A stretch of DNA of 64,000 nucleotides from Clostridium sp. OF03-18AA. GTDB taxonomy: Bacteria; Bacillota; Clostridia; Lachnospirales; Lachnospiraceae. Numbering within the stretch: the stretch's first letter is position 1; each line of letters begins with the position of its first letter. The translations under genes and the position numbers were made by a program. The stretch covers positions 1-64,000 of the forward strand of contig NZ_QUEP01000008.1 of NCBI RefSeq assembly GCF_003478035.1. The letters are read 5' to 3'. Positions 37,573 through 63,614 of this stretch are shown here, piece by piece. A model generated the notes under the pieces. It saw nothing but the letters and a program-made list of their open reading frames with translations. It was not told the DNA's origin and ran no database searches.

Positions 37573-40500
37573 ATGTCGAAATACGGAAAACTGATTGCGA
37601 TCGGCGCAACGACGCTGCTTGCCGCCGCAGGAACATTATCAGCCGGGATCTTTATGTCATCAGCGAGAGAATCCTCGATGGCGGCGGATGGCTATGTTCT
37701 GTCGTCAGATTGGCAAAGTACGCAAAGCGAGAAAAGTGGGAGCGAAGAAACAGCCCCGGAATCGTACTATTTCTCCGGAGGAACAAAGGTAAGAGGAAAA
37801 TTCCCGAATGAACTTGTCTTTCACGATGTTGAAGGAACAAAGCGCAGCGTTGGGAAAGAAAGCTTCCTGCACTATGCAGATGGTTCTGCCAGCGCGCTGT
37901 CTGATGGCGTCCTTGTAAATCTGGATGATATCAACACAGGACTTGTAAACCACTATGGAGTAGAAAAAAATACCGTTATTGCGGCTTCAAACGGTGGATT
38001 CTCCGTTGAGAACAACGGGAATGAGATCTCCTTCAACAACTTTATCTGGAAGATCGGCGATGACCGCTTTATGCTCTACTCAAACGGCGCGTCCTTACAC
38101 CTGCCCTCCGGCGAGGAGATAGCAGTTGACGGATGGATCGAGGCGGAGTACCCGGAACAGGGAATTATCTGTCTTGCAAACGATACAACACAGTACCAGA
38201 TCGTTGCAGATGGTACATACATCACTCTGGGCAATGGAGTCCGCTATGACTTCGGTGACCAGATTATTTCTGATGCCCAGGGCAACAGCCGGATGACGTT
38301 TCAGGAGATGCTTCTGGATGCGGATGATAACATTCAGGTCCAGTCTGCAGAGGACTGGGTTGCACCGGAATTCGATTTTACAGTCGTTGACGGTCAGTCC
38401 GGTGAGGAAGGTGCAGCCGGAGAGACAGGCGCAGCCGGAGAGACCGGTGCGGCTGGTGAGCAGGGCGACGAAGGAAAAGAAGGAAAGATCGGAAACAACG
38501 GCGAAGACGGAGAAGACGGAGAAGATGGAAACGAAGGCCAGGACGGCGATGAAGGAAGCAGCGGAGATGATGGCTCCGATGGCGGAAGCGGTTCCAACGG
38601 TCAGAGCGGTTCCAACGGATCCGGTGGAAAAAAGGGTACGAACGGAAGCTTAAATAATCCAGAAACCCAGGCACAGGCCTCCTTCCAGATCACGGAATTC
38701 ACGCTGACAGCTGGTACTCTTGATGCAACCTTCACTGTAACCGATGAGGACGATGTCTTAAACGGTCAGGAAGGCAGCGTTTACATTTACGATAAGAACG
38801 GCCAGCCGGTCGAGCTTGAGGTAAGTGGGGAAGCGGACAACACGAGGATCAACTTCGCGGCAGATGAGACCTACACCGTGACATGTTCCAACTTAAGTCC
38901 GGATCAGGAATACCGTCTGGTCGTAAAATCCGGGTATCTGTTAAAGAATATTACGGGAAGCAGGGATTACATCAACCGTACCTTCTATACAGACAGTTCG
39001 GGATTAAACCTCGATAAGGCATATGCGAAGGAAGACGGATTCGTTGTAACCCTTGAGAGAATGGATTACTCTGAAGCGACCCAGGCAAGGATCACGATCC
39101 TTGATTCCAAGGGAAAAGAGATCATGAGAAAAGAGGTCAGTGCGACCGAGCTTGCAGATCACAGCAATCTCGTAACACTCGACACGGCTTCTGACTTTAC
39201 AGCCTTAAACGGCGGAAATAATACTCTTACGAGTGATAAGACTTACAGTGTAAAACTTGAGTCCTATGTGGGCGGAGTCTGGAAGACGAGCGGTACTACC
39301 CAGACATGGAAGACCTTAAAGAAGACTCCGAAATTTGACGGAAAACCGGCCGGCTACGCAAACAGCCAGACCTACTTTGATCTTTCTGTAAAAGTACAGG
39401 ATGAGGATGAGGCAGTTACCGGTTATACCTGGGAGATCCTGGATCCGGAGAACAGGGGTGCACTGATCGAGACCCTGACTTCCACGAAGCCGAATACCTC
39501 CCTCTATATCGGACCGACAAAAGATGGAAATAACAAGATCGAAAAAGGTCACCAGTACATTGTGCGCGTCACAATGAATTATTACGATAACGAAAAGAAT
39601 GTTGAAGTTACGAGTGAACCGTCCGAACACGGATTCATGATGACTTCCAAGGGTGAGGTTTCCCTTTACTATACCTGGAATGAGAATACCGCAGACCATG
39701 TAGTCGATAAGAACACAACTCTCGACGGTGTTCTTACCATCGACCCGAAGGAGTACGGCACGATCTTTTCATCAGAGACCTATCCGTTGGAGATCATGAT
39801 CGAGAGCAGCGGAAACTACACTTCGACGATGAAGATCAATTTAAACTCCAGAGACTCCAACTACTCAGATGGTGAAGGAAAATACAACATCCCGATCCGT
39901 CAGTACGGATTAAAGACAAAATCCAGCTACCGTATCTCCGCATGGGGCTACGTTGAGGATCCGGTGACAAAGAATTACACGAGAACATATCTCGGTGACT
40001 GCGTTGTAAGTACAGGCGAGCACAGCCCGATTTCCGTGAACGTTGTTCCGGACTCCTCTGTGAACGTCGGTGTATCGGTCTACTTTGGTGAAGATACCGA
40101 TACAGAGGACACTGCAAATCTTTCAACGAAATCGGTCAAGATGGTCCGCGCTGCGATCTATACAGGTGCCAACACCTCCGGAACTCCGCTGGGAGCCGGC
40201 CCGGTTGACGTTTATGTCGACAACACGAACAACAGCGAACCGTATACGGGTGATTTCGTCAGCAAGTACTGGGGCGAAAACGGACGTCAGAACGCATTAA
40301 AGATCAGCGCCCAGACCTTCGGTCTTTCCTCCGCAGAGCTGACAGCATCGAAATATACGATCGCGATCCTCGGCGTTTACGACTATACATATAACTACTC
40401 CTACCTGGCAGATTCTGCCCAGAACCTGTCAAATTATGAGAACCAGCTTCCGTTCGAGACGGGAAGTACCACTTACTACTCCGTAAGCTACGATGAGAAG

Positions 40501-43500
40501 GTTCCGGATTTCCCGAGCCCGCTGACTTCCGGTGTGACTGTGACTCCCATCACGAACGCGAAGGCAAACTCCTATCTGCAGGGAACGACAAAAGATAACC
40601 TTGCGGACGACACGATCGTCGGATATAACCTCCGCGCGAACTACAACAACGAAGGCGGACTTGCGAACTCTGTCACTTACTATGTAATGACGGAGAAGGA
40701 TATTCTCGGATATGAGAACGATTCCGATACAGATAAGGGAAATGATCCGACCGAGTGGACAGACTGGGGCAAGGATAACTCCCCGAAACTGAAATTTACG
40801 CTTCCGGTCAATGCGAATGACCGTTCGCTCCCGTCGATCAATATCTTCTTTATGGATCCGGTAAACGGCGTGACGAGCACGATGGATTCCGTATGGAACA
40901 CCTGGGGACTCCGGATGAGCGAGGAGGAGAAGGTCGGCAACACGAACGGCGGAGCTGCTTCGTACTTCAATAGTCCGTCGAACGGTACCGTCTCGATCTT
41001 TGCGGGACCAAACTCAAACGTCACGAGAGGATGGCACTATGTATTTGCATATAAGGCGAGACTGACCTTCCGAAACAACTCCAACTATATCTTCCCGGAC
41101 AATGTGACAGGAAGCTTCAGCAAGGGCACTTTGCTCTCATCGGGAGTTGTCGACACACCGAAGCAGTCTCCAGACGTAAAGATGTATATCGAAAAGATCG
41201 AGAAGGGCGGAGTGCAGTGGAAATACCGCTACGATGATGTGGATGAATCATCCATACTCGCACAGGCGGATATTATGGACGATGCCACACTCGGCGAAGT
41301 ATTCCTCGGTGCAAAGAGAATTTCACCGACAACAAATGAACTTTCTTATATCGGAACAGATGGCGATTACGGGATCATGAAGATGGCGATGGGAGATGCC
41401 ACACAGGTCTACACCATCAAGATGAATCAGGTCCTCTATAATGAGAACGATGTCATGGAGAACGGCAGCCAACCGACTTCAGCGACCCTGTCGCTGGCGT
41501 CCCATATGTATACGCCGCCGATGGAACCTTCCGATATAAAGAACAGCCTTGCTATCCGTGTGTCACATGCAAACAATTCCAATACGGTGCGCTTTGAGTT
41601 TATCGTAAAGAATAATGCGATCGATCTGAACCGCGTCAGCCGCGTAACCGTGACAGGAACACCGGAAGGCGGAACTTCGTATACCTCTTACTATGCTGGT
41701 TTTACCGGAACGACAGACGGAGGAAACCAGTATGTGGGTTATGATCTCTCCCTCTTAAAAGGAATTACGAGCGGAAAGAAGGTAACCTTTACAGTAAACC
41801 TTCAGTATGATTCCGGCTTCGGAGGTCAGTACTATCTGACGAATGCACCGGTCAATGAAAACAGCGCGGAAGGCACGACCGGAAATTATATCGTGGAGTC
41901 CCTTGACAACGGCGAGAGCAGCCAGTATATGGAGTGGTACTATACGATCAACGCAAACGGCAATCTTGTCCGCAAGGATCCGTACCTTCGGTCTACTCCG
42001 TGGATGGCAGCGTATACAGTCAAAGATGTGACGAAGATTGACAGTCTCTGGCCGGAGGATGCGAAGAAGAACAAAAAGGATGGAGATATTCTTCTGAAGT
42101 TCAAGAATAGATCGAATGTCTTCCCGTCCTCCTATACGGATGAACAGAAGGAGGAGGAATTCAATAAACAGGTCCTCCAGCTCCGCCTCGGAACTTCCGG
42201 TTACAAGGAAGTCGGCGGAACACTCCAGCCGCTTCTCAAGGTGGAGAAAAAACTCATGTTCGACAAGGATGCGGATGCAAACCAGATGTCTGTGACCGTT
42301 GGGACCTTAAGTCCGACGATCAATGATGTTATGAGAACGACAGCGCTTACAACCTGCCGCCTCCAGTTCCGTACCAACAGCCGTGATCTTCTGGCGGAAG
42401 AAGAGGACGGAAATAGATATATCGTGGTCCGCGTCTACAGACAAGGTGAGACGACAGGAGATCCGGTCTTTGAGGAAAAGATCCCGATCGAGGGAGATCA
42501 GGCTGCGTACTATACAAGCCAGATCACCGGTCTCAGCCAGAATACCGAGTATGAGATCCACGTTCTTGGAAAGGCAATGGGAAGCGATACCTTAAAGGAG
42601 CTTCTTGATAATGACAGGAACAGCGAAGCGATCTACTTTATCCAGACGATGGACGGAATGGATATCACCGGAATTAAAGCATCAGATATCAACTATGTAA
42701 GTTACACAGACAAGAGTGTGAATATTTCCTACGGTCTGTCCCTGACAGAGGGCTTCGATATCACTTATGAGCTGAAAGAAGTCGTAAATGGTGTTGAACA
42801 GCAGCATGTTGTGGCAGACAATGACGCGATCCTTGCGGCAATGGGCTATACAAAGAACAGCGATGGAACATGGATCGACAAGGACGGCCGCGCGAGAAGC
42901 TATATGTCCGAGATGACCGAAAAGATCGATCTCTCAAAGAACACACTGATGAAGCCTGGACACCAGTACCGGCTCTATATCCGTGCGAAGGATGCAAATG
43001 GTGAGTCCGTGATCGGAAACAGAAATTATTTTGCAACGATCAACTGGGATAAGCTGATCGATCCTGGCTTCTATGTAGAAACGAGACCGGTAAATAACGG
43101 ACAGGGACTCAGCATCTCGGTTACCCCGCAGGATCCGAACAAGGCATTTGCGGAAGGTAAATATGTGATCGCACTCTACGACAGCGACAACAAGATCGTT
43201 GAAAACAATGATCAGATGTGTGTCTGGGAAAAGAATGTTTCGGACGGTATTGTGACCGTTTCCACGACAGATAAGATCAGCAGCCTTGATTCAAACAAAG
43301 AATACAAGCTCCGTATCTATGCGAGAAAAGATCTGGAGAACAAGGGAACCGAGACGGGACTTACCTGGGGCGAGATCGAAAATATGGCCGATGCCCAGAA
43401 GCAGAGCTTTGCGGCTTACGAGTCTGCAGAGAAGACGATGGATACCTGGGGAGGTCGTTTCGACAGCATCCAGATCAAGAGAAATGCAGGAAACCAGATC

Positions 43501-43776
43501 CAGATCCTTGTATACAACGGTTATAATCTTGATAACATCAAGATGATCCAGACGACTGTAAACTGGGTTGACAGCCAGGGTACAGCTCATACCGAGAGTA
43601 AGACGGTATCAGCAGGAACGACAGGACTGTTTACACAGAAAGGAACAACGTCAACCTATACGACGACAATTCCGATCGAACTTTCGGAGGACGATGTCCA
43701 GTATGCGGTAACGATCCAGTTCCTGAAAGAAGATGGTGGTCAGATCTATAAAGATACGATCACATTTACTCCGTAA
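37573..43776 (+). CDS. Giant surface protein with collagen-like segment and many fibronectin-III-like domains
   Basis: The 2067-residue product has an N-terminal export signal or anchor (about 6-30) and a beta-rich N-domain with DG-type turns (about 60-270). A collagen-like stretch of 28 uninterrupted Gly-X-Y triplets follows (about 276-360); it is rich in Asp, Glu, Asn and Ser and has no proline. The rest (about 365-2067) is a string of fibronectin-III-like beta domains, recognisable by repeated L-P-x-T/Q-x-Y-x-L/V endings such as LSPDQEYRLVV and LSQNTEYEIHV. No sortase motif or C-terminal helix is present. A long extracellular fibre is likely. The start follows AGAGGTG. It is the first gene of the operon, 18 bases before the next. 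No exact family match is recognised. Confidence 0.9.
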   Translation: MSKYGKLIAIGATTLLAAAGTLSAGIFMSSARESSMAADGYVLSSDWQSTQSEKSGSEETAPESYYFSGGTKVRGKFPNELVFHDVEGTKRSVGKESFLHYADGSASALSDGVLVNLDDINTGLVNHYGVEKNTVIAASNGGFSVENNGNEISFNNFIWKIGDDRFMLYSNGASLHLPSGEEIAVDGWIEAEYPEQGIICLANDTTQYQIVADGTYITLGNGVRYDFGDQIISDAQGNSRMTFQEMLLDADDNIQVQSAEDWVAPEFDFTVVDGQSGEEGAAGETGAAGETGAAGEQGDEGKEGKIGNNGEDGEDGEDGNEGQDGDEGSSGDDGSDGGSGSNGQSGSNGSGGKKGTNGSLNNPETQAQASFQITEFTLTAGTLDATFTVTDEDDVLNGQEGSVYIYDKNGQPVELEVSGEADNTRINFAADETYTVTCSNLSPDQEYRLVVKSGYLLKNITGSRDYINRTFYTDSSGLNLDKAYAKEDGFVVTLERMDYSEATQARITILDSKGKEIMRKEVSATELADHSNLVTLDTASDFTALNGGNNTLTSDKTYSVKLESYVGGVWKTSGTTQTWKTLKKTPKFDGKPAGYANSQTYFDLSVKVQDEDEAVTGYTWEILDPENRGALIETLTSTKPNTSLYIGPTKDGNNKIEKGHQYIVRVTMNYYDNEKNVEVTSEPSEHGFMMTSKGEVSLYYTWNENTADHVVDKNTTLDGVLTIDPKEYGTIFSSETYPLEIMIESSGNYTSTMKINLNSRDSNYSDGEGKYNIPIRQYGLKTKSSYRISAWGYVEDPVTKNYTRTYLGDCVVSTGEHSPISVNVVPDSSVNVGVSVYFGEDTDTEDTANLSTKSVKMVRAAIYTGANTSGTPLGAGPVDVYVDNTNNSEPYTGDFVSKYWGENGRQNALKISAQTFGLSSAELTASKYTIAILGVYDYTYNYSYLADSAQNLSNYENQLPFETGSTTYYSVSYDEKVPDFPSPLTSGVTVTPITNAKANSYLQGTTKDNLADDTIVGYNLRANYNNEGGLANSVTYYVMTEKDILGYENDSDTDKGNDPTEWTDWGKDNSPKLKFTLPVNANDRSLPSINIFFMDPVNGVTSTMDSVWNTWGLRMSEEEKVGNTNGGAASYFNSPSNGTVSIFAGPNSNVTRGWHYVFAYKARLTFRNNSNYIFPDNVTGSFSKGTLLSSGVVDTPKQSPDVKMYIEKIEKGGVQWKYRYDDVDESSILAQADIMDDATLGEVFLGAKRISPTTNELSYIGTDGDYGIMKMAMGDATQVYTIKMNQVLYNENDVMENGSQPTSATLSLASHMYTPPMEPSDIKNSLAIRVSHANNSNTVRFEFIVKNNAIDLNRVSRVTVTGTPEGGTSYTSYYAGFTGTTDGGNQYVGYDLSLLKGITSGKKVTFTVNLQYDSGFGGQYYLTNAPVNENSAEGTTGNYIVESLDNGESSQYMEWYYTINANGNLVRKDPYLRSTPWMAAYTVKDVTKIDSLWPEDAKKNKKDGDILLKFKNRSNVFPSSYTDEQKEEEFNKQVLQLRLGTSGYKEVGGTLQPLLKVEKKLMFDKDADANQMSVTVGTLSPTINDVMRTTALTTCRLQFRTNSRDLLAEEEDGNRYIVVRVYRQGETTGDPVFEEKIPIEGDQAAYYTSQITGLSQNTEYEIHVLGKAMGSDTLKELLDNDRNSEAIYFIQTMDGMDITGIKASDINYVSYTDKSVNISYGLSLTEGFDITYELKEVVNGVEQQHVVADNDAILAAMGYTKNSDGTWIDKDGRARSYMSEMTEKIDLSKNTLMKPGHQYRLYIRAKDANGESVIGNRNYFATINWDKLIDPGFYVETRPVNNGQGLSISVTPQDPNKAFAEGKYVIALYDSDNKIVENNDQMCVWEKNVSDGIVTVSTTDKISSLDSNKEYKLRIYARKDLENKGTETGLTWGEIENMADAQKQSFAAYESAEKTMDTWGGRFDSIQIKRNAGNQIQILVYNGYNLDNIKMIQTTVNWVDSQGTAHTESKTVSAGTTGLFTQKGTTSTYTTTIPIELSEDDVQYAVTIQFLKEDGGQIYKDTITFTP
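38398..38653 (+). repeat. Collagen-like Gly-X-Y coding repeat
   Basis: Twenty-eight consecutive Gly-X-Y triplets, starting GEE-GAA-GET-GAA and ending GKK-GTN-GSL. Acidic X/Y residues dominate the first half, Ser/Asn the second. Confidence 0.92.
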
Positions 43777-43793
43777 CAGAAGGGGCGACAGAG

Positions 43794-45749
43794 ATGAAAC
43801 GAGCATTAACAGGAAAAGCAAAGCGGTCCTTCGTGATCTTTGCAGCGGCTGTGACAACAGCCGTTGCAGGGTTCAGCGTGGGGGTCGTGAGCGCAGCCAA
43901 TACTCAGTCGGAGAAATATGCGGTGCCCGCAGGCGGGACCGTATATGACAACAGCTACGCAAAGATCGAGATTGGCTCAGAAGGAAAAATATACCGCAGC
44001 TGGAATAAAGGATACAATCTGGTCGATGATAATAAGAAAGAATATTCTCTCGGACGCCAGACGGTTGCGTATGATCCGGGGGCAAAATCCCTGACGGTCT
44101 ACGGAGGCGGCTACCGGTTTTATCCGGATGGAACCGTGGAAAGACTTGACTCCCGCTATGAGATCACGGATCTCAGTGAACCGGCCTTTTACAAACTGAC
44201 AGACCGGAAATATCTGATGACCGGAAGCGGGATCACCGACAACACCGGAAGCCTTCAGGCAGAAGGCTGGGCATTTATGGTGGGCGACCGCTCCGGAAAT
44301 GTCCATGTGATGAACGACCTTCTTGATCTCAAGATCCTTGATGCACAATCCTTTAAGACCGGGGATATCACATTTACCGTGAAGGATGAAGCACTGGATC
44401 TCGGACTCGAGCGCACGGTCGATCTCGGTCAGGTCCTCGGCTCTTTAAAAGTCGTGGAAGATCCGTATAATCTCGGCCAGAAGCTCTACTCTTACACGAT
44501 CCGCGGCGGAGACGGCGGAAACGGCGGTGTCGGCGGAAGCGGCGGTGTCGGCGGAAGCGGCGGTCTCGGCGGTAAAGGCGGAAACGGCGGTCTCGGTGGA
44601 AACGGAGGCACCGGAGGTACCGGAGGCACCGGAGGTATCGGTGGATCCGGAGGTATCGGTGGGTCCGGCGGAAACGGCGGTTCCGGTGGAAACGGTGGAA
44701 ACGGCGGTGATGGCGGAGCAGGAGGAAACGGTGGATCCGGCGGACGAGGAGGCGATGGCGGAAGCATCGACAACAGCGGATCCGACCAGGCGATCTTAGG
44801 ACGCCAGTCCATGCAGTTAAAACAGGTGACAAGTGATTCTTCCTATATTGATACTTCGTTTGCGATTTCTGACCCGTTCGGATACTATGGTGTGATCGAG
44901 CTGCGTGTTTATGAGGCAAATCACTCTGCGAATGATGACAATTATATCGCGCACGCGTTTGTGAGCCCGGATGACAGTGATTACCGTTTTACGGAGAAAC
45001 TTCTTCCCAAGACGAAATACCGAGTGGTACTCGGTTACTATCCGGAATATGATGAGAGCGATGAGGACGAAGGTTCCTTCAAGGTCATGGATACCATGAG
45101 GGTCTGGACGAAGACGGTCAACTGCGATTTCACCGTCCGTTCCATCACGAGCTCCGGTATCGAGTATGCTCTCAGCATCAACGACGATTATCCGGCGTAC
45201 AGCGCAAGAGCCGTTCTCTATGATGAGAGCGGAAGCGAACTCAGCGAAAATGAGGTCGATGTCAGCGAAGCGGCAAACGGTGAAGTCACAGAATGGTTTG
45301 ATGCAGCGGTTGGAGAAGATGTGAGAACCTACCGTCTGGAGCTTCAGATCTTTGCAGCGAACAGCAGTCAGGCGACTGTCTTAAAGACGATCACGGCAAA
45401 GAACCCGTATTACAACAGCGGAAGCGGTTCCGGAAGCTCCGGTACATCCGGCGGAAGCACATCCGGTGGAAGCGCGTCCGGCGGAAGCACATCCGGTGGA
45501 AGCACGTCCGGTGGAAGCACATCTGGCGGAAGCACATCCGGCGGTACATCCTCCCAGGACGTTTCTTCCCAGGATGCATCTTCCCAGAATGTTTCGGACG
45601 GGACAACGGTGAATGATGACGCGGACAGATCTTCTTCCGAAAATAATTCGGAGATCGTCTTAAAGAGCGCTGAACCGCTGTTTGAGACAATCCCGGCGGA
45701 CAAGCCTCTGATCATCAGGACTGAAGATGAGACGAAGGTCGGGGAGTAA
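43794..45749 (+). CDS. Secreted surface protein with GGX polyglycine-II-like segment
   Basis: The 651-residue product has a signal peptide ending near VSA (about residue 34) and a beta-rich N-domain (about 45-235) like those of its neighbours. A run of about 29 GGX triplets follows (about 237-325), of the kind that forms polyglycine-II helix bundles in some adhesins and antifreeze proteins. Then come one or two fibronectin-III-like domains (about 335-540) and a Ser/Gly/Thr-rich tail with repeated TSGGS (about 556-585). No wall-anchoring motif or membrane helix is seen at the C-terminus. It shares its overall plan (export signal, beta domain, Gly-rich linker, Fn3-like) with the preceding protein and the 3566-residue protein. 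Confidence 0.88.
   Translation: MKRALTGKAKRSFVIFAAAVTTAVAGFSVGVVSAANTQSEKYAVPAGGTVYDNSYAKIEIGSEGKIYRSWNKGYNLVDDNKKEYSLGRQTVAYDPGAKSLTVYGGGYRFYPDGTVERLDSRYEITDLSEPAFYKLTDRKYLMTGSGITDNTGSLQAEGWAFMVGDRSGNVHVMNDLLDLKILDAQSFKTGDITFTVKDEALDLGLERTVDLGQVLGSLKVVEDPYNLGQKLYSYTIRGGDGGNGGVGGSGGVGGSGGLGGKGGNGGLGGNGGTGGTGGTGGIGGSGGIGGSGGNGGSGGNGGNGGDGGAGGNGGSGGRGGDGGSIDNSGSDQAILGRQSMQLKQVTSDSSYIDTSFAISDPFGYYGVIELRVYEANHSANDDNYIAHAFVSPDDSDYRFTEKLLPKTKYRVVLGYYPEYDESDEDEGSFKVMDTMRVWTKTVNCDFTVRSITSSGIEYALSINDDYPAYSARAVLYDESGSELSENEVDVSEAANGEVTEWFDAAVGEDVRTYRLELQIFAANSSQATVLKTITAKNPYYNSGSGSGSSGTSGGSTSGGSASGGSTSGGSTSGGSTSGGSTSGGTSSQDVSSQDASSQNVSDGTTVNDDADRSSSENNSEIVLKSAEPLFETIPADKPLIIRTEDETKVGE
44503..44772 (+). 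repeat. GGX coding repeat
   Basis: About 29 in-frame GGX triplets, X being mainly Asn, Ser, Val, Thr, Ile, Leu, Asp. The DNA repeats GGCGGA/GGAGGT-type units. Confidence 0.9.
45448..45548 (+). repeat. Ser-Gly coding repeat (TSGGS units)
   Basis: In-frame units close to SGGST are repeated about seven times, with nearly identical DNA (GGAAGCACATCCGGT type). Slippage could change the copy number. Confidence 0.8.
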
Positions 45750-45798
45750 TCGGAAACAGGTTATTATGAGAAAAACAGGATCGGGATCCTGTTGATAA

Positions 45799-46095
<297 letters not shown>

Positions 46096-46116
46096 TCGAA
46101 AGGCAGGTGCAAGACC

Positions 46117-46884: not shown

Positions 46885-46896
46885 GGAGAAGCAAAG

Positions 46897-48229: not shown

Positions 48230-48243
<14 letters not shown>
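46897..48243 (+). CDS. F1-like ATPase alpha subunit
   Basis: The 448-residue product is a divergent AtpA. It has P-loop GDKKTGKT (about 166-173; usual GDRQTGKT), LLVLDDLKRHADVHRE in place of the YDDLSKQA region, ISITDGQI and the arginine-finger motif VSRLGG (about 357-362), which completes the catalytic site on beta. It is about 50 residues shorter than ordinary alpha subunits, mainly at the C-terminus. The N-terminal helix that contacts the stator is present (KSLVDKKIEEIKAG). The start follows AAGGAG. It overlaps the gamma gene by 14 bases. Confidence 0.93.
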
Positions 48244-50388
<2,145 letters not shown>

Positions 50389-50404: not shown

Positions 50405-50656
50405 TTGGAGGGAATTATGACAGCCAGGATCCTCGGCTTTCACGAAGGCCTTAAGGTCCTCGAACATGTCGATCTGATCCGGATCGTGAGCAGCACCTAC
50501 AACCTTCTGATCCTGAAAGACTATATGCCGGTCCTTGGCGAGATCAAAGGAAATGTTGAGATCGTGAGCGGGGACAGGACGGAGACTTACGAAAATGTAA
50601 CCGGATATTTTATGCACAGCCATAACGAATTTGAACTTCTGATCACGGGAGAATGA
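50405..50656 (+). CDS. F1-like ATPase epsilon subunit, beta-sandwich only
   Basis: The 83-residue product matches the N-terminal beta-sandwich of AtpC (ILKDYMPVLGEIKGNVEIV compares with the family's ILPGHAP..IKPG stretch). It ends before the C-terminal helical hairpin that inhibits ATP hydrolysis in normal epsilon. The start is taken as TTG at 50405, seven bases after GGGAGG; the ATG at 50417 is too far from that site. It follows beta directly, the usual place of atpC. Confidence 0.8.
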   Translation: MEGIMTARILGFHEGLKVLEHVDLIRIVSSTYNLLILKDYMPVLGEIKGNVEIVSGDRTETYENVTGYFMHSHNEFELLITGE

Positions 50657-50660
50657 GACT

Positions 50661-54900: not shown

Positions 54901-57900
54901 ACAACGTCTACTACGACAGCGGAAAGAATGAGACGAACTACACGTTCCCGGATCCGAACAGACTCTATGTTACAACAGGTGAGGGAATTACCGGTTCGCT
55001 TGATCTCGAGTCCATTGTGGCTGCGGGATCCGGATGGAAATCTTCGGTGACGGTTACGTTAAACGACCGGAAGAAGGAACTGAAGAACGGAACATACACC
55101 CTGCTCTTAAAAGGAGCGGACGGTATGGACGTTGACTCCTCCAAGTTAAAGGAGATCAGCCGGATTTCCTATGATTTCCCGTATGATACAGCGGGAGACC
55201 AGGGAATCTCGGAGGCAAAGAGCTTTGACTGTAAGGGATTCTGGACATATGAGGTCGATCTCCTGATCAGCGTCCGCGGTTACGAGGACATTGTCCTCTC
55301 AAAAGTGAACTTCACGACGGAGACCGGAATGGATACGATCTCGAACTGGACGGAGTTCCGGACGAAGCTGAATGCAAATCCGAACGGAAAGTTCGCGGTC
55401 ATCGCGGATATCGAGAGGACGGATTCCAGCTATGTATCGAACTTTGCCGGAACGGTCGACTTCCAGGGACATACGCTTTCCTTCCCGGAGGGCAGCAACT
55501 ACGGAGCGGTGATCGGAACCCTCAAGAGTACCGGCGTGGTAAAGAACATTGTATTCAATTACCGGAGAACCGTTTCTCCTACTTCACAGATCTCGCAGAC
55601 AGGCGGAATTGTCACCATGAACTATGGAACCATCAAAAATATTGTGATGACGATGTCGCTCGGGCGGACGAGACCGAACTACAGCAACGGATTCCTTGTA
55701 TATACGAACTATAAATCCGGCGTGATTGAAAACTTCTCCATCAAACTTGAGAAGGAGCTCCACGCGAGAAGCTACATTGGTATTGTGTGTAGCGAAAACC
55801 AGGGAACGATCCGCCGCGGCGTTGTCTACGGAAAGGACGTTGTCATGGAGAGCGTCGTCTATGGAGGCGATGTGACGGTTGCATCCGGCAAATATGGTGC
55901 GATGGCATGTACGAACTCGGCGACCGGTCTGATCGAGGATACCTTTGTGATCAACAATACGGTCAACGAGTACAACAACAGTGAGTGGACAATGAGCCGG
56001 ACTGCCGGAATTGTCGGAGAAAACAGCGGTACCGTCCGGAACAGCTTCTTTGTCGGAGACACCTACTATTATACGTATGAAAACGGAAAACAGTCCGTCT
56101 ACAAGATCTACGATAAAGGCGGGTCTACGGTCGGCGCCAACAACAGCGGCGCGCGCTCGACGGATCTCTACCACATCTCGATGAGTACCGGAGCGGTATA
56201 TCAGAAAGATCTCGGAACGGCGACGGCGGTCCAGAGACTCTGGGACGGCGTCTGGTATGAGAAGGCGTTCAAGAATCCGGATGCGTTTACGATCGACAGC
56301 CAGCTCGCGAGCGGTTACTATCCGCGGATCAATATGTCAGACGCGATGGAGACGGCGCAGGAGAATATCGCCCTGCCGCCGGCACCGGGTGCAGATGTTC
56401 CGGAATTTGTCAGCAGCCGTGTGGTCAGCCAGACAAATAAAGAGGCGGAAATCCTCCTCTACTACCGGAGCAACAACCAGCAGAAGATTACCGGAATCGG
56501 CATCGATGGCCTGACGACGGAGGTTCTTGACCAGTATACAGAAAACGGCATGTACGTCGTCCGCGTGAAGGTCAGCGATCCGAAATCCTTTACCGGAAAG
56601 TATCTCTATACGAGCATTACCTACGAGATCAACACGGTGAGCCACGAGACGACGACTGTCGCCTGCGGTCAGGACGGAAACTATATTGAGGCTGATTTCT
56701 ACCGCGAGATCGCAAGCTTCGAGGATTGGCTCTATCTGGACCAGTACCCGGCGGAGAACTTTATCCTTGTGGATGATCTCGACTTCACCGGAAAGAACCT
56801 CGCGGCGATGCAGGTCGGCACGGAAAAGGTTCCGTTTACCGGAAAGCTAAACGGTGACGGACATACGGTAAAGAATATCAGCGGTGTCGGCTCCACGATC
56901 TTTGCGGTCGTATCCGGAGCGGAGATCAAAGACATCAATTTTGAAAATGTCGAACTTATCACAAATGATTCCGCGGACAACAAGGCGAAGTCCATGCAGG
57001 CCGGAATCTTTGGCAAGGTTTTAAACAACACGACCTTAAAGAATATCCGTGCGTCGAAGGTGACGCTCTCCGATATGCCGGCCAACATCGGCGGTCTTGT
57101 CTCTTACCTTGAGTACAGCACGATCGAGGACTGCCGGATGGAAGATGTATCGATCCGGACAGCAGCCTACGGAAACAGCGCCCTTTCGGTCGGCGGTCTT
57201 GTAGGTTACGGAAAAGGTCTCACGGTGAAGAACTCCTACGCATCGGGGCTTGATATCGAGGCGAAGAACGGAGTCCGTGCGAACGGAGTCGGAGGTCTCG
57301 TCGGATACGTCGAGACATTCGGAGCTGTATCAAACGCTTACTCCCACGGAACGATCAATACCGCTTTTGGCGGCACCGGCGGGATCGTGGGAGCCGGAAG
57401 CTCTGACGTCAGTGAGGCGGTATCCCTGACGGATATCACAAGCTCGACCGGAGATCTCGGCGGAATTCTGGGAATTGCGACGGATAACGTCTCGGTTGAT
57501 GATGTCATCTCGATCGGAAACCTCTCCGGAAGTGGTTCCAATATCAACCGTATCTACGGAAATATACGTGGTGTTGCACAGTGTGCAGTCACAAACGGCG
57601 CTGCCTACAGCGGCCAGATCGTCGGAACGGGAACTTCCGTGGAGCTTCTGACAGCGACTTACCTCTCTGCGGCAGGGGAATTCCTGACCCAGAACTTCTT
57701 CAGAAACCGCGGACGAATCGGAAACAGCTTTGATATCGAGGGCAGCAGCGGCTATCGGATCGAGGACGGATATCTTCCGCAGTTAAAGAATGTTTCCGGG
57801 GAAATCCTCGCAGACCAGACCCCGCGCGAACTTCCGGATGAAAACCTGAAAGTGAGAAGAGCGGAGATCTATCAGCAGAGCAGTGGTGTCTATAACGTCG

Positions 57901-60900
57901 AGGTATACGCAGAGAACGGCGGAAACGGTTTCCTTTTGGATCGCATTGAGGCGGATGGACTCGATTTTTCCTCCTCAGATCCTAAAAAGGCAGTCGATGG
58001 GCTTGGAATCCAGTATTCGGATGTACAGCCGACGAAATTCCAGTCCGTCTACCCGGCATTCGCAGTCTTTAAGAAAGATGGTGTGGAGAAGCGCCTTGCG
58101 ATCCAGATCCTCGTGAGAGAGGGAACTGTCATCGCGCGGACGATCCGCGATGCGGAAGAGTGGTATGCTGCGATGACAGAGGCGGGGCAGAACTTCGAGA
58201 ACTTCCGGATCGCCGGGGACATCGATCTTTCCAAGTATGTAACGAACGGAAAGATCCCGATGGGCTTAAAGATCAATTCCCTCGTCGGTGAGACAAAGAG
58301 CGACGGAGGAAAGTATACGATCACCTTTGGCGGAAAGGAGTACAGCACAGCGAGTGCTGCGGAATCCATGATCAACGTGATCGCCGGGGAGATGAAGAAC
58401 CTGCGCTTTGCCGATATCGCGATCAACAACGGAACAAAGGCGGGAACCGGTTTTGGTATTGTCTCCACAAACCAGGGTAAGATCGAGAACTGCGAGTTCG
58501 AGAAGGTAAAACTTACCGGTTATCAGGCATCCCAGGTCGGTATGATCGGAACGAACACAGGTACGATCACGAATGCTTCCTTAAAGAATATCGAGATCTC
58601 GGTTTCCTCGACATCGAGTTATGTCGGTGGTCTTGCCGGTTACTCGACCGGTGCGATCAGCAACATCATGGCGGAAGGAGACGCGGTGGACTATACGTCC
58701 CTCGACGGTCTTCCATCGGACACACTCTTTACCTACCGGATCGTTGCGCCGTACAGTGAGGGCGTCGGCGGTATCGTCGGCGGAACAAAAGCGACGCTTA
58801 CAGACGCTTCGGTCAAAGGAATCTATGTCAGTGGTTATAGTTATAACGGCGGTATCGCCGGACGTCTCGCTCAGGGCGTGCCGTCCGGAAACCTTACGGT
58901 CGGTGAGAGCGGATATCCGGTCTTTGTAAGCGGCAAAAACTATACCGGCGGTATCGGCTCCCTGTTCTCCGAGTCGACGAGAGACAGTGCACCGATCACG
59001 AACACGAAGGTGCAGTACACTTATGTCTCCGGCGGAGGAACCACCGCAGGTATCCTCGGAATCGGAAGCTGGTGGACGAGTATTGTGGATGCGACGGTAG
59101 ATCACTCCTATATTAAGGGAACCGGAAGCTACACGATGGGAATCATCCAGAGTGGAGCGAGAGTGAACCGGGCACTCGTAAAAGAGTCCGTGATCACCGG
59201 AACTTCCTACGTTGCCGGTATTTCAAACGGGCAGAGTGGCGGTATCTACTACTCGAGCGTCGTTGATTCAACGGTCGAGGGAAGCGGAAACTATATCGGC
59301 GGCATCATGGGTAATACATCTGCTCAGGAGGGGATCTCCCAGGTTGCGGTTGTCGGATGTACAGTTCAGGGAACCGGAGCAACCTCGATGGGTGTCGGTG
59401 GAATTGCCGGAAGAAACGAGGGAACCGGAACGGCCGCCAGCTTCTTCGTTGTCAATAACACAAAGGTCAAAGGCGTCACGGGGGTTGGCGGTATCACCGG
59501 AATTGCTATCGCCGGAAGATATACGTATATGAACTGCAATGCGGATGTCGAGGCGACTGGTTCTGCAGCCGGTGCATTTGCGGGAATCCTCTACGACTAC
59601 AAATACGATAACCGTGGATACATTTCATACAACCGCGCGATGGTGAAGGAAGGTATCTTCGGAGGAACGGTCAAATCTGTTGAGCAGGCAGGCGCTTTTG
59701 TCGGACGTCTCACCTACAGCAATCCGGAGAGAGATGCAACGGGTGCTGTCGTTGCCCACGGAAATGACTATCTGAGCAGCGAAAATTATAATAATCTCGT
59801 TCTGACTTCGGATGTAACCGTGACGGGCAGATCGAGTACACCGACCGTCTGGGGTACTTTCTATCTGGACACGACTGAGTACACAGATACGGATTCAACT
59901 TATTTAAGACCGACAAGGACTCTTGACGATGAGGGGATCCGGACCGTGAACGGAGCAGCTTCGAAGGCAGCTGTCTGGGGCGGACTGAAATTAAACGGCA
60001 CACCGCTCTGGGGCGAGAACGGTTCGAAGATCCAGGATTACACCGGAAGCGGAAAACCGTATGCGGAACTTAAGCTGAATGCAAATGCGAAGGATCCGAC
60101 GAAATTCGATGATCCGGCAGCCGTTGCTCCGTACCAGTATTTTGTTACGGATGCGAATGTGTTTGGTACCAATGCGTTCTACACGAATGTTTTGAGCCTG
60201 AATTCCAGCTACTGGGATTATAAGAACCTGAAGCCTGGAAAGAATGATACGTATACGGCACATTTCCCGTATGTAAAGACGGGGGAGAGCTTCTACCCGT
60301 ATCCGGATCAGACACAGACAAACCTCATCAACTATGAGGATGGCTCCTACGGCTTCTGGGGAGTTCCGATCCCGACAGGCGCGATGACTTCGATGTTGTC
60401 ACTTCGGGATCTTACTGACGAGCAGTACCTCTGGGTATCCGCTTCGGGACCGGCGTCCATCACGTTTGAACTCGCTTCCGACGTTGTCGGAGTGACGATG
60501 ACGGTTGCAGATGGATCCGGGGAAGTCTTAAGTGTCAACACGACCGACCGGATCTATACGATGCCGTACAATTACAGTACGCCGCTTACCGTAACGCTCT
60601 CGGCACCGGAACTCGGATTTACACAGACCTATGATGTTCTGGCGACGGACCTTGTGTCCTCCGTCATGGCATGGAACGGGGATCAGTATTACCTGACCGG
60701 TTCCGGGATCCGGAGTGCGTCCGGAAAGCAGATCGCGGGAAGCTTCCTGAACCTGCGCGACGGAAAAGCGCTCGACTTAAACGGCGATGTCTGGGATGTG
60801 GAGAGCGGAAGTGTCGTATCGCACTGCGATTTCTCTGACATTCAGTGGGAGGAACCGAAGGCAGTCCATACCTTTACATACGATGGAAAGAAGCTTTCCG

Positions 60901-62609
60901 TCTACCACCAGTTCATCCACTACGACGGGGAGGACCTCGACAGGCTCGCTTATGTGAAGAACGGAACCCTGTTCGGATTGGAGACGGATCCGGAGCTTGT
61001 CTACGGGGCAGTGCTCGCAGATACATATCAGGACAGCCAGTATCTGACAGTTCTCGGAACCGATGGAATGCTTCATGACTTAAATGAGTCGATCCATCTT
61101 CCGGAGAGCTTCACAAACCGCGGGATCGTGGAGCTGGCTGATAATATGAACGACAGCAGCCATGTCGCGATCGGCCGGTTTGAGGACGGAAAGGTATTTG
61201 CCTTCAACTTCCTGACCGGAACGGAGCTTACGCTTGAGGAGGCGGATTCCTGGGAGAACGGCGAGGATCTGACACTTGCGGATTACGCGGGTCAGTATAT
61301 CGAGAGTTACTTAGGAAGCTGGTTCGGAATCAACAATTCCGGATATCAGGCATCCGTGAACCTCATGACGAACTTAAGCAACGGAAAACTTGGAAGTCTT
61401 GACGATATCCTTTCCTACAAGGGAACCGCCTCCGGAGACGGGGATGCGGCTGTTTCTTCCGGAAAGGCAGGAGGAGACGGATCCTCATCCGGTGATCCTG
61501 ACAAGACCGAAAAGAACGGAGAAAACGACAGAACGGCTGACAAGACGGAAACGACAGACGGAAACGGAAGGACCTCCGACAATACGGAGAAAAATACTGT
61601 TTCCGGAACATCGGTGAAGGATCGTGAGGCGGATACTTCTGAAAAGGATGTAAAAGCTTCCGAGAAGCCGGATTCCGAGAAGAAGACGACTGACAAAAAG
61701 GATGGCGGAAAAGAGAAAGCCGCTGTATCTGAGAGCGCGGCTGAGAAGGAGAAATCCGGAAACAGCAGTATCGTGGATAAGATCAGGAGTCTCTTCGGAA
61801 AGGCGAAGGACGATGTGAAAGCCGATGCGGCCGATGCGAAGAGCAAAGATGCATCAGAGAGCACGGATGCAGCGAAGCAATCCGGTGCAGCCGATACTCA
61901 GATGAAGAATGCAGCTCAGAATGCAGAATCCCTGACAGTGCAGAAGGAAGACGCAGAGAAGACTGCAGACGGATCAGACAAAGCACAGAACGCGCTGCCG
62001 GAGAACCGTGCAGATGACGCAGAGACCGGCAATACGGACAATTCCGGTGCAGCAGCTTCCGACTCTGCAGGATCGGAGAATGATTTTGAAGATGCAGCTT
62101 CGAATGCTGCCTCTGAGGATACGACCTCCGGAACATCTGCAGAAGGTTCCGCGGATGAAGCCGGAAAGGCAGCAGACGCGGCAGCTCAGACTGACGGAGA
62201 ACAGGCCGGAGAGTCCGCTGGAAATTCTTCTGAAGCTTCCGGACAACAGGCTTCTGAGGCCTCCTTCGACGGAACATCTGCGGAAGTAGCCGATGGAATG
62301 ACCACCGATCCGACATCCGGCTCTGTGACGGAAAGGAAACTGATCACTGTCTATAATCCGGCAGACGGATCTTACAAGGTCTACACAGCGAAAGATTACC
62401 TGTCTCAAAAGAGCAGTGATCTTACAAGTGTGGACGACAAGGTGAAGGAGATGGCATCTCAGGGACTGATCGCCGATCAGGCACAGTTAAAGAGCAACAA
62501 TTTCGTGAAAGACAAGAAATACGGAATCATGATCTTCGGTGCGTTCTCTGCGATGGGAGTCCTCTTATCCCTTGGTCTTCTGTTCAGAAAGAGAGAGGGG
62601 AGGAAATAA
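51909..62609 (+). CDS. Giant (3566-residue) surface protein with GLUG-like repeats and hydrophobic segments at both ends
   Basis: Order seen: hydrophobic export signal or anchor (about 4-20, possible cleavage after AFA at 35), beta-rich N-domain to about 220, Ser/Gly-rich linker (about 315-415), and fibronectin-III-like domains (from about 422 to 1140). Three blocks of GLUG/M26-adhesin-like repeats start at about 1145, 1600 and 2075, each led by an ADIERTDSS/DDLDFTGKN/AGDIDLSKY-type strand and followed by GGLVGY or GGIVG units, up to about 2650. A further beta region reaches to about 3170, then a 300-residue Ser/Ala/Asp/Lys-rich spacer and a C-terminal helix with tail RKREGRK. No LPXTG is visible. 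It resembles large adhesins, but no protease motif was noticed. The start follows AGGGGGAA. Confidence 0.92.
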   Translation: MKKIIAMAAMLLAVVVFAYTYRLQTLAWLQLPAFAVTEKDITDTLKADGTPEEDKEVLSMRACTEDEALYRRANRYFIGDKKESVDITYPLFAQEGTALYYLNGDLKLITNDFESYEPYEGMLLSNGTAYDIDGQTAEDEEYILSTAGKGLYINTQPMTVTSSGNESRIRLNSIMYLGDSGIHYYSYDDGRLVYGQTKITYGDTVKIGSVSMSYDEFLKQLGLVAEYSSTEQKIQPETEAETNPADRSDREQRRPGSSGEHANGETVANADTSVTPALPVTPGADGNRQVNEEIDESGSTDGNNGSDDSGLYTDSTFAEEGSGDSSGDSDSGSGSGSAGGGSASGGSGSSSGGSGGGGASDSGSGSGSSGSGSSGGGGGSSSSPSGGSGSVDQSGDGDSGADTGDGSSDGGDSDVRPDEFKEPTVILSNINVGVYGMTGKVEITDDQSRLVRVVFRFSVNGTQKSRKNMKKEGTLEVTNLEPGTTYQLSGDIVFRNDEGIKVTKPFMDAIEISTLPMTTLRPMRLTFSERDTFLPYQIGIDRILAEDVATSDERISAIPYISRIEVTAGGEDYNVGGTIVRNIKKGTAGDWLSKEGFSSNKTYDYTIRVMDRFRNEFELTSDSITRGSTHTSKVEPKASLRETGNTVGTQTISVQIQNTDHAAMENCYFYVVNQQGEDVPAFDETGDGINTRYRRAVSTDGKANEFMITNLPSGSSFYMVARADYDLNDKNTENWQRNMQLGRLSVYTAPISLLGNAYVDVDSADITDSSFTIGLSIDTDKTLEGLLTLMERLPVEISSDTKTWKNEEILSRKELEKVPVQAGTASMVIQDHDSTDASVPKVVLTGTAPTENTNAWELLMKGWRAELQFREGEGQDDPFDSMTVYTVSVGAVAAQGGSEYNVGASTNSLQLRTLKQTAGIRHDGVFTLSNFIEIYHFYFDDPDNAVDKGTITVKLYSVSEASLVETRMIKTNTEYESLRFNNLKMDTDYRIEFTAQNYNVYYDSGKNETNYTFPDPNRLYVTTGEGITGSLDLESIVAAGSGWKSSVTVTLNDRKKELKNGTYTLLLKGADGMDVDSSKLKEISRISYDFPYDTAGDQGISEAKSFDCKGFWTYEVDLLISVRGYEDIVLSKVNFTTETGMDTISNWTEFRTKLNANPNGKFAVIADIERTDSSYVSNFAGTVDFQGHTLSFPEGSNYGAVIGTLKSTGVVKNIVFNYRRTVSPTSQISQTGGIVTMNYGTIKNIVMTMSLGRTRPNYSNGFLVYTNYKSGVIENFSIKLEKELHARSYIGIVCSENQGTIRRGVVYGKDVVMESVVYGGDVTVASGKYGAMACTNSATGLIEDTFVINNTVNEYNNSEWTMSRTAGIVGENSGTVRNSFFVGDTYYYTYENGKQSVYKIYDKGGSTVGANNSGARSTDLYHISMSTGAVYQKDLGTATAVQRLWDGVWYEKAFKNPDAFTIDSQLASGYYPRINMSDAMETAQENIALPPAPGADVPEFVSSRVVSQTNKEAEILLYYRSNNQQKITGIGIDGLTTEVLDQYTENGMYVVRVKVSDPKSFTGKYLYTSITYEINTVSHETTTVACGQDGNYIEADFYREIASFEDWLYLDQYPAENFILVDDLDFTGKNLAAMQVGTEKVPFTGKLNGDGHTVKNISGVGSTIFAVVSGAEIKDINFENVELITNDSADNKAKSMQAGIFGKVLNNTTLKNIRASKVTLSDMPANIGGLVSYLEYSTIEDCRMEDVSIRTAAYGNSALSVGGLVGYGKGLTVKNSYASGLDIEAKNGVRANGVGGLVGYVETFGAVSNAYSHGTINTAFGGTGGIVGAGSSDVSEAVSLTDITSSTGDLGGILGIATDNVSVDDVISIGNLSGSGSNINRIYGNIRGVAQCAVTNGAAYSGQIVGTGTSVELLTATYLSAAGEFLTQNFFRNRGRIGNSFDIEGSSGYRIEDGYLPQLKNVSGEILADQTPRELPDENLKVRRAEIYQQSSGVYNVEVYAENGGNGFLLDRIEADGLDFSSSDPKKAVDGLGIQYSDVQPTKFQSVYPAFAVFKKDGVEKRLAIQILVREGTVIARTIRDAEEWYAAMTEAGQNFENFRIAGDIDLSKYVTNGKIPMGLKINSLVGETKSDGGKYTITFGGKEYSTASAAESMINVIAGEMKNLRFADIAINNGTKAGTGFGIVSTNQGKIENCEFEKVKLTGYQASQVGMIGTNTGTITNASLKNIEISVSSTSSYVGGLAGYSTGAISNIMAEGDAVDYTSLDGLPSDTLFTYRIVAPYSEGVGGIVGGTKATLTDASVKGIYVSGYSYNGGIAGRLAQGVPSGNLTVGESGYPVFVSGKNYTGGIGSLFSESTRDSAPITNTKVQYTYVSGGGTTAGILGIGSWWTSIVDATVDHSYIKGTGSYTMGIIQSGARVNRALVKESVITGTSYVAGISNGQSGGIYYSSVVDSTVEGSGNYIGGIMGNTSAQEGISQVAVVGCTVQGTGATSMGVGGIAGRNEGTGTAASFFVVNNTKVKGVTGVGGITGIAIAGRYTYMNCNADVEATGSAAGAFAGILYDYKYDNRGYISYNRAMVKEGIFGGTVKSVEQAGAFVGRLTYSNPERDATGAVVAHGNDYLSSENYNNLVLTSDVTVTGRSSTPTVWGTFYLDTTEYTDTDSTYLRPTRTLDDEGIRTVNGAASKAAVWGGLKLNGTPLWGENGSKIQDYTGSGKPYAELKLNANAKDPTKFDDPAAVAPYQYFVTDANVFGTNAFYTNVLSLNSSYWDYKNLKPGKNDTYTAHFPYVKTGESFYPYPDQTQTNLINYEDGSYGFWGVPIPTGAMTSMLSLRDLTDEQYLWVSASGPASITFELASDVVGVTMTVADGSGEVLSVNTTDRIYTMPYNYSTPLTVTLSAPELGFTQTYDVLATDLVSSVMAWNGDQYYLTGSGIRSASGKQIAGSFLNLRDGKALDLNGDVWDVESGSVVSHCDFSDIQWEEPKAVHTFTYDGKKLSVYHQFIHYDGEDLDRLAYVKNGTLFGLETDPELVYGAVLADTYQDSQYLTVLGTDGMLHDLNESIHLPESFTNRGIVELADNMNDSSHVAIGRFEDGKVFAFNFLTGTELTLEEADSWENGEDLTLADYAGQYIESYLGSWFGINNSGYQASVNLMTNLSNGKLGSLDDILSYKGTASGDGDAAVSSGKAGGDGSSSGDPDKTEKNGENDRTADKTETTDGNGRTSDNTEKNTVSGTSVKDREADTSEKDVKASEKPDSEKKTTDKKDGGKEKAAVSESAAEKEKSGNSSIVDKIRSLFGKAKDDVKADAADAKSKDASESTDAAKQSGAADTQMKNAAQNAESLTVQKEDAEKTADGSDKAQNALPENRADDAETGNTDNSGAAASDSAGSENDFEDAASNAASEDTTSGTSAEGSADEAGKAADAAAQTDGEQAGESAGNSSEASGQQASEASFDGTSAEVADGMTTDPTSGSVTERKLITVYNPADGSYKVYTAKDYLSQKSSDLTSVDDKVKEMASQGLIADQAQLKSNNFVKDKKYGIMIFGAFSAMGVLLSLGLLFRKREGRK

Positions 62610-62615
62610 GATTCC

Positions 62616-63614
62616 ATGAAACAAAAAAAAGGCTGGAAAGTATTCTTTCTGTCGCTCCTCATGTGCCTGACGTTTTCGTCAGGCGCGTGGGCGGCAGAGG
62701 GAGATCCCGTGAAGATCGAGCGGGTGAAACTGAAGCTGGAATCCCAACTGACAAAGACCGGGGAGGTCAAGGTCACAAATATGGGAAAAGGCTACACAGT
62801 TACCGGCTGCGAGGTCATCAACGGTGCGGATGTTGACAACTGGAATTCTTCCTACTGCGCACGTGTCCAGATCGGGCTTGTTGCGGACAGCGGGTATGAG
62901 TTCCGGAAAAAGGGAAGCTCCTATTTCGACCTCAAAGGGTCCGATGTCTATCGCTTTGTATCGAGAGAATACGAGGGGAATGAAGAGGTCTGGCTCTATG
63001 TGGACATGATCCCGATGAATAAAAAGATCGGGGTTCCTCTGGATCCGGACTGGAGTGGTACCGGGACAGCAAAGTGGAGTCAGGCATATAAGGCGGTTTC
63101 CTATCATGTAACCCTTTATGAGAATGGAAAAAAGAGAACGAGTGAGACGGTAAAACGTGGAAATACGATCGATTTTTCCGGTCAGATGAAGGAAGGAAAG
63201 CTCTACACCTTCTTTGTGACAGCAGAAAACAGCGATGGAAAGAAGAGTAAAGCGGTTGCCGGACCCGGGATCGTCTATACCGGAACCAGATTCACATCAC
63301 AGGATGGAAGTACTCCGAAAGATCAGGCATTTTCAGGTGCGTGGATCGAGGAAGACAAAACCGGAAAGTGGCGTTATGTGATGAATGCCAGAGGGACTTC
63401 CTGGTGTCAGGACCAGTGGAAGGAGATCGGCGGAAGCTGGTACCGGTTTGATGCGGACGGTTACATGGTGACCGGCTGGTACCAGTCTCCGGATGGAACC
63501 TGGTATTATCTCGATGAATCCGGTGCGATGGTAACCGGAGAGAGAACGATCGACGGAAAGACGTATCGTTTTGGAAATGGTTCCGACCGGGAAGCCGGAG
63601 TCTGGATCTCCTGA
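62616..63614 (+). CDS. Secreted protein with choline-binding-type cell-wall repeats
   Basis: The 332-residue product has a signal peptide (about 1-28, ending AWA) and an N-terminal beta domain (about 30-130). A fibronectin-like segment follows (about 145-215), then C-terminal aromatic repeats such as GSWYRFDADGYMVTGWY and GTWYYLDESGAMVTGE (about 265-310). These are CW_binding_1 repeats, known to bind choline or other wall polymers. It lies six bases after the 3566-residue gene and closes the operon. It could tether the surface structure to the wall. Confidence 0.88.
   Translation: MKQKKGWKVFFLSLLMCLTFSSGAWAAEGDPVKIERVKLKLESQLTKTGEVKVTNMGKGYTVTGCEVINGADVDNWNSSYCARVQIGLVADSGYEFRKKGSSYFDLKGSDVYRFVSREYEGNEEVWLYVDMIPMNKKIGVPLDPDWSGTGTAKWSQAYKAVSYHVTLYENGKKRTSETVKRGNTIDFSGQMKEGKLYTFFVTAENSDGKKSKAVAGPGIVYTGTRFTSQDGSTPKDQAFSGAWIEEDKTGKWRYVMNARGTSWCQDQWKEIGGSWYRFDADGYMVTGWYQSPDGTWYYLDESGAMVTGERTIDGKTYRFGNGSDREAGVWIS

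Follow-up and report, generated by a model that had tools for sequence, protein, structure and literature searches.

Introduction

Known rotary ATPases interconvert ATP and ion gradients, and the N-ATPase, a second F-type operon beside the housekeeping one, keeps the ion sites of both a and c. Here we describe a gene cluster at positions 37573..63614 of a window (the whole 64,000-nucleotide stretch that was analyzed: positions 1-64,000 of contig NZ_QUEP01000008.1, assembly GCF_003478035.1, from Clostridium sp. OF03-18AA, Lachnospiraceae) that encodes F1-like ATPase subunits among giant exported proteins. The closest described systems are those of mycoplasmas. F1-like ATPases are proposed to drive mycoplasma gliding and are required by MIB-MIP (PMC11864180, PMC12994834), the Type 3 F1-like X0 ATPase is linked to surface proteins (PMC12994834, PMC3369863), and mycoplasma clusters lack an Fo homologue (PMC3369863). 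We found no described equivalent in walled bacteria in the open-licence PMC literature, where F1-like ATPases of this sort appear only in mycoplasmas. We propose that the cluster probably specifies an ATP-driven rotary motor that is uncoupled from ions and would pass torque across the membrane to stiff surface rods, because its catalytic residues are kept, the c carboxylate is lost, no a-like protein is recognized, and the linkage to giant genes is conserved.

Results

The ATPase genes stay linked to genes for giant, predicted surface proteins

The cluster consists of twelve open reading frames (ORFs) on the + strand, encoding in order proteins of 2067, 651, 86, 255, 448, 260, 452, 83, 166, 242, 3566, and 332 amino acids (aa); neighboring ORFs overlap slightly or lie no more than 85 bases apart. 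The features are as follows (TM, transmembrane).

37573..43776, + strand: G2067, an exported giant of 2067 aa with an N-terminal hydrophobic segment, the shared domain described below, and a collagen-like GXX rod at aa 274-360
within 37573..43776, + strand: the long distal part of G2067, with an Fn3 match below threshold
43794..45749, + strand: G651, exported, with an N-terminal hydrophobic segment, the shared membrane-proximal domain, and a GGX rod at aa 238-324
45835..46095, + strand: c-like rotor ring subunit with Thr65 at the TM2 carboxylate position (PF00137, ATP-synt_C, 1.1e-8)
46117..46884, + strand: predicted b-delta-like stator (structure model, Foldseek, VIA-align)
46897..48243, + strand: alpha-like subunit with P-loop Lys172 and arginine finger Arg359 (residues; Pfam ATP-synt_ab, 8.7e-75)
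48230..49012, + strand: gamma-like central shaft (PF00231, ATP-synt, 3.4e-24; profile match to housekeeping gamma 98.9%)
49030..50388, + strand: beta-like catalytic subunit with Lys153 and Glu179 (residues; Pfam ATP-synt_ab, 2.2e-65)
50405..50656, + strand: epsilon-like protein of N-terminal-domain length only (position and a weak colinear profile match, 1%, E 0.053)
50661..51161, + strand: TM166, a membrane protein with three to five hydrophobic segments in homologues and without a-subunit similarity
51158..51886, + strand: X242, related to G2067 and G651, with an N-terminal TM helix and an exported all-beta domain
51909..62609, + strand: G3566, an exported giant with hydrophobic segments at both termini and a basic C-terminal tail
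62616..63614, + strand: exported 332-aa protein with choline-binding repeats, co-directional and outside the conserved module
63694..63738, + strand: terminator-like hairpin followed by TTTTG (z -6.4)

No convincing Pfam family was found for the b-like, epsilon-like, TM166, and X242 proteins; the b-like protein has a sub-threshold match only (16.1 versus 21.7 bits) and the epsilon-like protein none.

A peptide-pattern scan of a genome collection spanning 84,980 species for relatives of the window beta returned 48 genomic loci that encode one at 55-72% identity (loci are cited by L numbers and genomes by three-digit G numbers). These loci are partly truncated, and many end before the slot of the 332-aa gene. 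BLAST with the window proteins matched c in 41, b in 42, alpha in 44, gamma in 46, beta in 48, and epsilon in 47 of the 48 loci and, among the envelope genes, X242 in 41, TM166 in 27, G2067 in 27, G651 in 29, and G3566 in 32; TM166 members also occupy the same slot in L023, L040, and L045, beyond the 27 BLAST loci. The preliminary description, made from the window alone, reported a run of twelve same-strand genes. All twelve are indeed co-directional at the positions listed, and eleven of them recur, but the 332-aa gene has no BLAST homologue at any of the 48 loci or in ten clusters with longer flanks. It begins 6 bases after the G3566 gene, and the terminator-like hairpin lies downstream of it.

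The usual order is G2067, G651, c, b, alpha, gamma, beta, epsilon, TM166, X242, G3566. The genes are rearranged at L004, L005, and L011 and follow a different order at L038-L043 and L045, which come from Bacilli records; in both sets the surface genes still adjoin the ATPase genes wherever flanks are available. Sufficient flank, at least 4 kb upstream or at least 6 kb downstream, is available at 41 loci. Of these, 39 have a same-strand giant, defined as an ORF of at least 900 aa, outside the ATPase span, and the remaining two (L004 and L011) have a giant of more than 2200 aa inside that span, ahead of the displaced c gene. The linkage of ATPase genes to giant genes, on which the preliminary description turned, is thus conserved at 41 of 41 loci. 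Its survival where genes are rearranged (L004, L005, L011), and also under the Bacilli arrangement, argues for a motor that serves the surface. By eye, the genes beyond the module mostly differ among ten long-flank genomes and the window, with G013 and G019 sharing one downstream gene.

The module is widespread but patchy, since with the centre genome included it is carried by 3 of 391 sampled genomes in the class of G001 (a Lachnoclostridium record), 3 of 250 in the family of G001, and 5 of 395 in the class of G021 (a Bacilli record). One locus, L033, comes from a Coriobacteriales (Actinomycetota) metagenome-assembled genome (MAG) record and may reflect horizontal transfer or a binning error. 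The exact c-like protein of the window occurs on at least 1000 contigs in the database, which suggests that its source organism is abundant.

The catalytic head is kept under purifying selection

As first described from the window, alpha and beta keep their catalytic residues. Beta has P-loop Lys153 and Glu179 in 49 of 49 proteins (the window and the 48 loci); in alpha, the arginine finger Arg359 is present in 45 of 45 and Lys172 in 44 of 45, the other being a gap. We estimated omega roughly by the Nei-Gojobori method, with synonymous changes near saturation in several pairs, and obtained 0.005-0.081 for beta and 0-0.062 for alpha (nine pairs), 0-0.055 for c (eight pairs), and at most 0.076 for gamma in the compared pairs. 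Values were looser for b (up to 0.25) and X242 (up to 0.33, some pairs setting different copies side by side). In the compared pairs, alpha, beta, and c are under strong purifying selection, on which ground we rejected a pseudogene cluster. A plasmid-borne gene was rejected as well, the gamma sequence having no match in a plasmid collection.

These data bear most directly on the idea that the cluster is a redundant, decaying copy of an ATP synthase operon. Loss of the carboxylate and of the a subunit (see below) is what decay might leave behind, but omega values for alpha, beta, and c that do not exceed 0.081 contradict it, the catalytic residues are conserved across loci in long open frames, and in five Bacilli genomes the only F-type beta found is that of the module. 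We regard a decaying copy as hardly credible.

The ion path is lost

At the position aligned with Asp61 of Escherichia coli c, the 42 c-like copies have Thr (23), Ser (11), Ala (6), or Met (2), the window residue being Thr65. No acidic residue lies within TM2 in any of the 42; L024 has a C-terminal Asp past the helix. TM2 is likewise free of acid in the best 120 of 1274 database matches to the c-like protein (114 by script and 6 with a variant loop by eye). All 42 copies retain the GRNPETK loop and the four aligned TM1 glycines unchanged, and all have a C-terminal [FY][FY]NP motif; NP is present in 115 among the best 120 of the 1274 matches, many of these being near copies of the window protein.

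Pfam gave no match to ATP-synt_A, the a subunit, in ten scanned window proteins or in 28 TM166 homologues, and the alignment of these homologues has no invariant column. For both reasons, we rejected TM166 as a degenerate a subunit. With the carboxylate missing from all 42 c-like copies and no a subunit recognized in the cluster, the ion-conducting part is absent or altered, as had been proposed.

The complex might still be ion-coupled if TM166 were an unrecognized a subunit and ions bound the Thr or Ser at the old carboxylate site, or some other group. Thr or Ser does occupy this site in 34 of 42 copies, and the gene for TM166, a membrane protein, lies next to those of the ATPase. Known rotary ATPases rely on a carboxylate, however, and the acid-free TM2 together with the Pfam and alignment results for TM166 speaks against ion coupling, which we consider very improbable.

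A predicted b-delta stator accompanies the rotor genes

The structure model of the b-like protein (predicted local distance difference test score (pLDDT) 85, predicted template modelling score 0.53) has a long N-terminal helix with a hydrophobic start, a linker, and an OSCP/delta-like C-terminal part. The model was compared by Foldseek and VIA-align, and Foldseek ranks 1-41 are all ATP synthase chains. We predict from the model that this protein is a b-delta stator fusion. The mycobacterial b-delta subunit, which also carries b and delta on one chain, is among its best structural matches; the module protein differs in being shorter (255 aa) and in belonging to a cluster without an a subunit.

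A static or regulatory F1-like scaffold that clusters surface proteins without rotating would account for the same head, as hexameric P-loop ATPases can function with no shaft to drive, and rotation in this module is inferred. A scaffold would have no need of the gamma, ring, and stator genes, all of which are kept, nor of omega as low as that of gamma (at most 0.076) and c (at most 0.055). We give this alternative little credence.

The module lies apart from housekeeping synthases and scores below the cut-offs of other ATPase families

Beta profile scores are bimodal, with 742-832 bits in this family and at most 512 bits in all others listed. In phylogenetic trees, the module forms its own clade (support 100/100 for beta and 97/96 for alpha), separate from the synthases of carrier genomes and mollicutes. 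Its alpha and beta thus fall outside the housekeeping synthase, as the preliminary description expected, also within one genome (L095 versus L096 and L097 in G001).

We checked 25 carrier genomes, the window's own not among them, for other ATPase systems; the records are mostly titled MAG with completeness not stated, and V/A-type calls were judged by open-frame length. An F-type a subunit was found in 19 of the 25, always on contigs other than that of the module, so most carriers have a second ATPase system beside it. Among the six without an a subunit, G017 and G025 have V/A-type pairs by frame length, and G012, G021, G022, and G024 have only the module alpha and beta. G001 has two such clusters (L096 and L097), an ordinary F-type operon, and a V/A-type system as judged by frame length. 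In the Bacilli-class sample of draft genomes, each of five carriers has one F-type beta above threshold, that of the module (in G704, 4 of 5 candidates were scored). Because no other F-type beta exceeds the threshold there, the module beta probably does not serve as a spare synthase part in these five carriers. A plain housekeeping synthase was rejected on the missing a subunit and carboxylate and the separate clade.

Among the NCBIfam models listed, alpha was accepted by none, including atpA (392.8, below 484.45), N-ATPase, MMOB1660, and MSC_0619, and beta only by atpD, whose cut-off of 462.85 it passes by 2.4 bits (465.2). Because of this narrow pass, automatic annotation would call the window beta (49030-50388) ATP synthase beta. 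For the N-ATPase models TIGR03324 and TIGR03305, alpha scored 355.4 (below 750.5) and beta 426.1 (below 752); the best score among the FliI/SctN models listed was 206.4 (beta with TIGR02546, below 604.75). The Type 2 models gave 374.7 for alpha (below 600, MMOB1660) and 375.8 for beta (below 850, MMOB1670), and the Type 3 models 294.5 for alpha (below 520, MSC_0619) and 393.4 for beta (below 570, MSC_0618). As all of these N-ATPase, FliI/SctN, and mycoplasma scores fall below the curated cut-offs, we rejected membership in the N-ATPase, FliI, and mycoplasma motor families.

With the F1Fo synthase (AtpA, D, G, C, E, F, H), the module shares homologous alpha, beta, gamma, and c subunits, the catalytic residues, and the predicted b-delta stator, but it has no recognizable a subunit and no c carboxylate, its epsilon-like protein is short, b and delta lie on one chain, and giant surface proteins are part of the gene run. 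The mycoplasma Type 3 F1-like X0 system (MIB-MIP) is alike in encoding extra F1-like alpha, beta, and gamma with exported and membrane proteins. Its X0 consists of 12-TM, 19-kDa, and two-TM proteins that have no profile similarity to the module parts tested: profiles of proteins 1, 2, and 5 from nine mollicute clusters gave a best match of 1.24% to seven module queries (b, gamma, epsilon, c, TM166, X242, and the N-terminal part of G651), and no 12-TM protein is encoded in the module cluster. Beyond alpha and beta, only gamma resembles the seven-gene clusters of the nine mollicutes (84.7%, eight gamma sequences); epsilon has no profile similarity to them. The Type 2 G1-ATPase of gliding in Mycoplasma mobile is likewise an F1-like motor proposed to serve surface machinery (PMC11864180, PMC12994834). 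Type 2 beta has a ~30-kDa N-terminal extension, and the beta of the type-2-like locus L078 lies within a 680-aa open frame, whereas the window beta (452 aa) has no large extension.

Mollicute genomes in the trees were assigned from gene order, genome size, and in-frame TGA, and Type 2 and 3 labels from spacing, gene order, and beta length. The beta tree joins the module with Type 2/3-like mollicute sequences (89/95 with all, 98/93 with Type 3-like sequences alone), as does the concatenated tree (97/99), both with long-branch warnings; alpha alone does not resolve the grouping. A mollicute-only origin was retained in the tree test (p-AU 0.055). With either group omitted, each attaches among Bacilli-class synthases, mollicutes included (support 90 and 92). 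On these sequence comparisons, a common origin of the module and the mycoplasma motors is possible.

Three exported proteins share a base domain, which in two of them precedes glycine rods

The surface domains named in the preliminary description fared unevenly: a collagen-like stretch exceeds its Pfam cut-off (39.7 versus 27.2 bits), but Fn3 (19.0 versus 25) and GLUG (19.6 versus 20.5) fall below theirs. Profile comparison revealed a membrane-proximal domain common to three exported proteins, linking G651 with G2067 (95%, E 3e-8), X242 with G2067 (83%, 8e-6), and X242 with G651 (65%, 6e-5), where each E-value refers to a single comparison. Pairings with the control profiles (TM166, b, gamma, and middle parts) reached at most 10.53%. 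G3566 gave 19%, 9%, and 5%, and its sharing of the domain is not established; in 10 of 10 cases, a basic tail follows its C-terminal hydrophobic segment. The shared domain is followed directly by a GGX run in 9 of 11 G651 proteins, the longest run measuring 12-39 triplets, and by a GXX run in 9 of 12 G2067 rows. Both glycine runs are absent in G012 and G024, and in G025 the G2067 protein is split and without a GXX run. A base domain common to three exported proteins, with glycine rods after two of them, supports the reading of a surface motor.

The high-confidence X242 model (pLDDT 94) predicts an N-terminal TM helix and an all-beta domain with more than 20 short strands. Nothing in the PDB matches it closely; OspA and TCP10/G-box sheets are among the weak matches. 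In L009 and L028, X242 carries a fused TM166-like part, and this fusion, together with the predicted b-delta fold, also favors a surface motor. One lineage has a tandem pair of longer X242 copies, ~400 and ~470 aa in length (L028 at 11697-14298, and also L031, L032, and L048), the first copy of L028 bearing the N-terminal TM166-like part.

The ATPase might instead power export or stepwise assembly of the giant proteins, in the manner of a secretion system, and leave the finished fibers unmoved. Giant exported substrates encoded with the motor, and the match of FliI/SctN export ATPases as distant relatives, would be expected on this view. However, each of the four conserved exported proteins carries an N-terminal hydrophobic segment of its own (incomplete frames aside; it is weakest, at 1.66, in window G2067), mostly preceded by basic residues, as fits Sec export; Pfam found no channel family in the cluster proteins; and a ring and stator would be superfluous in a FliI-like role. 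We think export unlikely.

Neighboring genes in the window

RnfC- and RnfD-like genes lie at 12755-15040 (Pfam Complex1_51K, RnfC_N, and NQR2_RnfD_RnfE), which makes it likely that the organism possesses an Rnf ion pump separate from the cluster. Part of the genes at 25101-33749 were scanned and include two family-5 solute-binding proteins and an oligopeptide-type ATP-binding cassette (ABC) ATPase. This stretch is followed at 33959-35941 by an S9 peptidase gene, which had no BLAST match at the 48 related loci.

Discussion

We suggest the following course of events. The predicted b-delta stator would hold the alpha-beta head, and ATP hydrolysis would turn gamma together with the c-like ring, which keeps an intact loop motif. 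Given the topology of known c subunits, torque would exit at the outer face of the ring, the site of [FY][FY]NP. TM166 and X242 may couple stator or rotor to the base domain common to G651 and G2067, and the glycine rods and long distal parts of these two proteins, with G3566, would do external work by moving, tensioning, or assembling fibers. More broadly, the module may be a mover, rotator, exporter, or assembler of fibers, and mechanical work on surface structures is the most likely use of the motor. The mycoplasma F1-like ATPases offer a precedent by analogy. A bolder version, which we hold only tentatively and think somewhat doubtful, is that walled bacteria possess a new class of rotary ATPase, in which the c ring, once an ion turbine, became a mechanical feed-through and spins or cranks the collagen-like and polyglycine rods outside the cell, and that the gliding and antibody-handling motors of mycoplasmas share with it an ion-uncoupled Firmicutes ancestor.

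Current annotation masks the module, several of the source names being those of ATP synthase subunits. A carboxylate-free c-like protein is on record for Hominiventricola filiformis, a named Lachnospiraceae species, and a deposited strain is reported for the genus (PMC12056005); experiments are thus not confined to uncultured bacteria. The module places an apparent ion-uncoupled F1 motor, with recognizable rotor and stator parts, in walled Clostridia and Bacilli. If this is true, two questions would become testable: how torque can pass through a membrane with no ions involved, and what the origin of the mycoplasma motors was.

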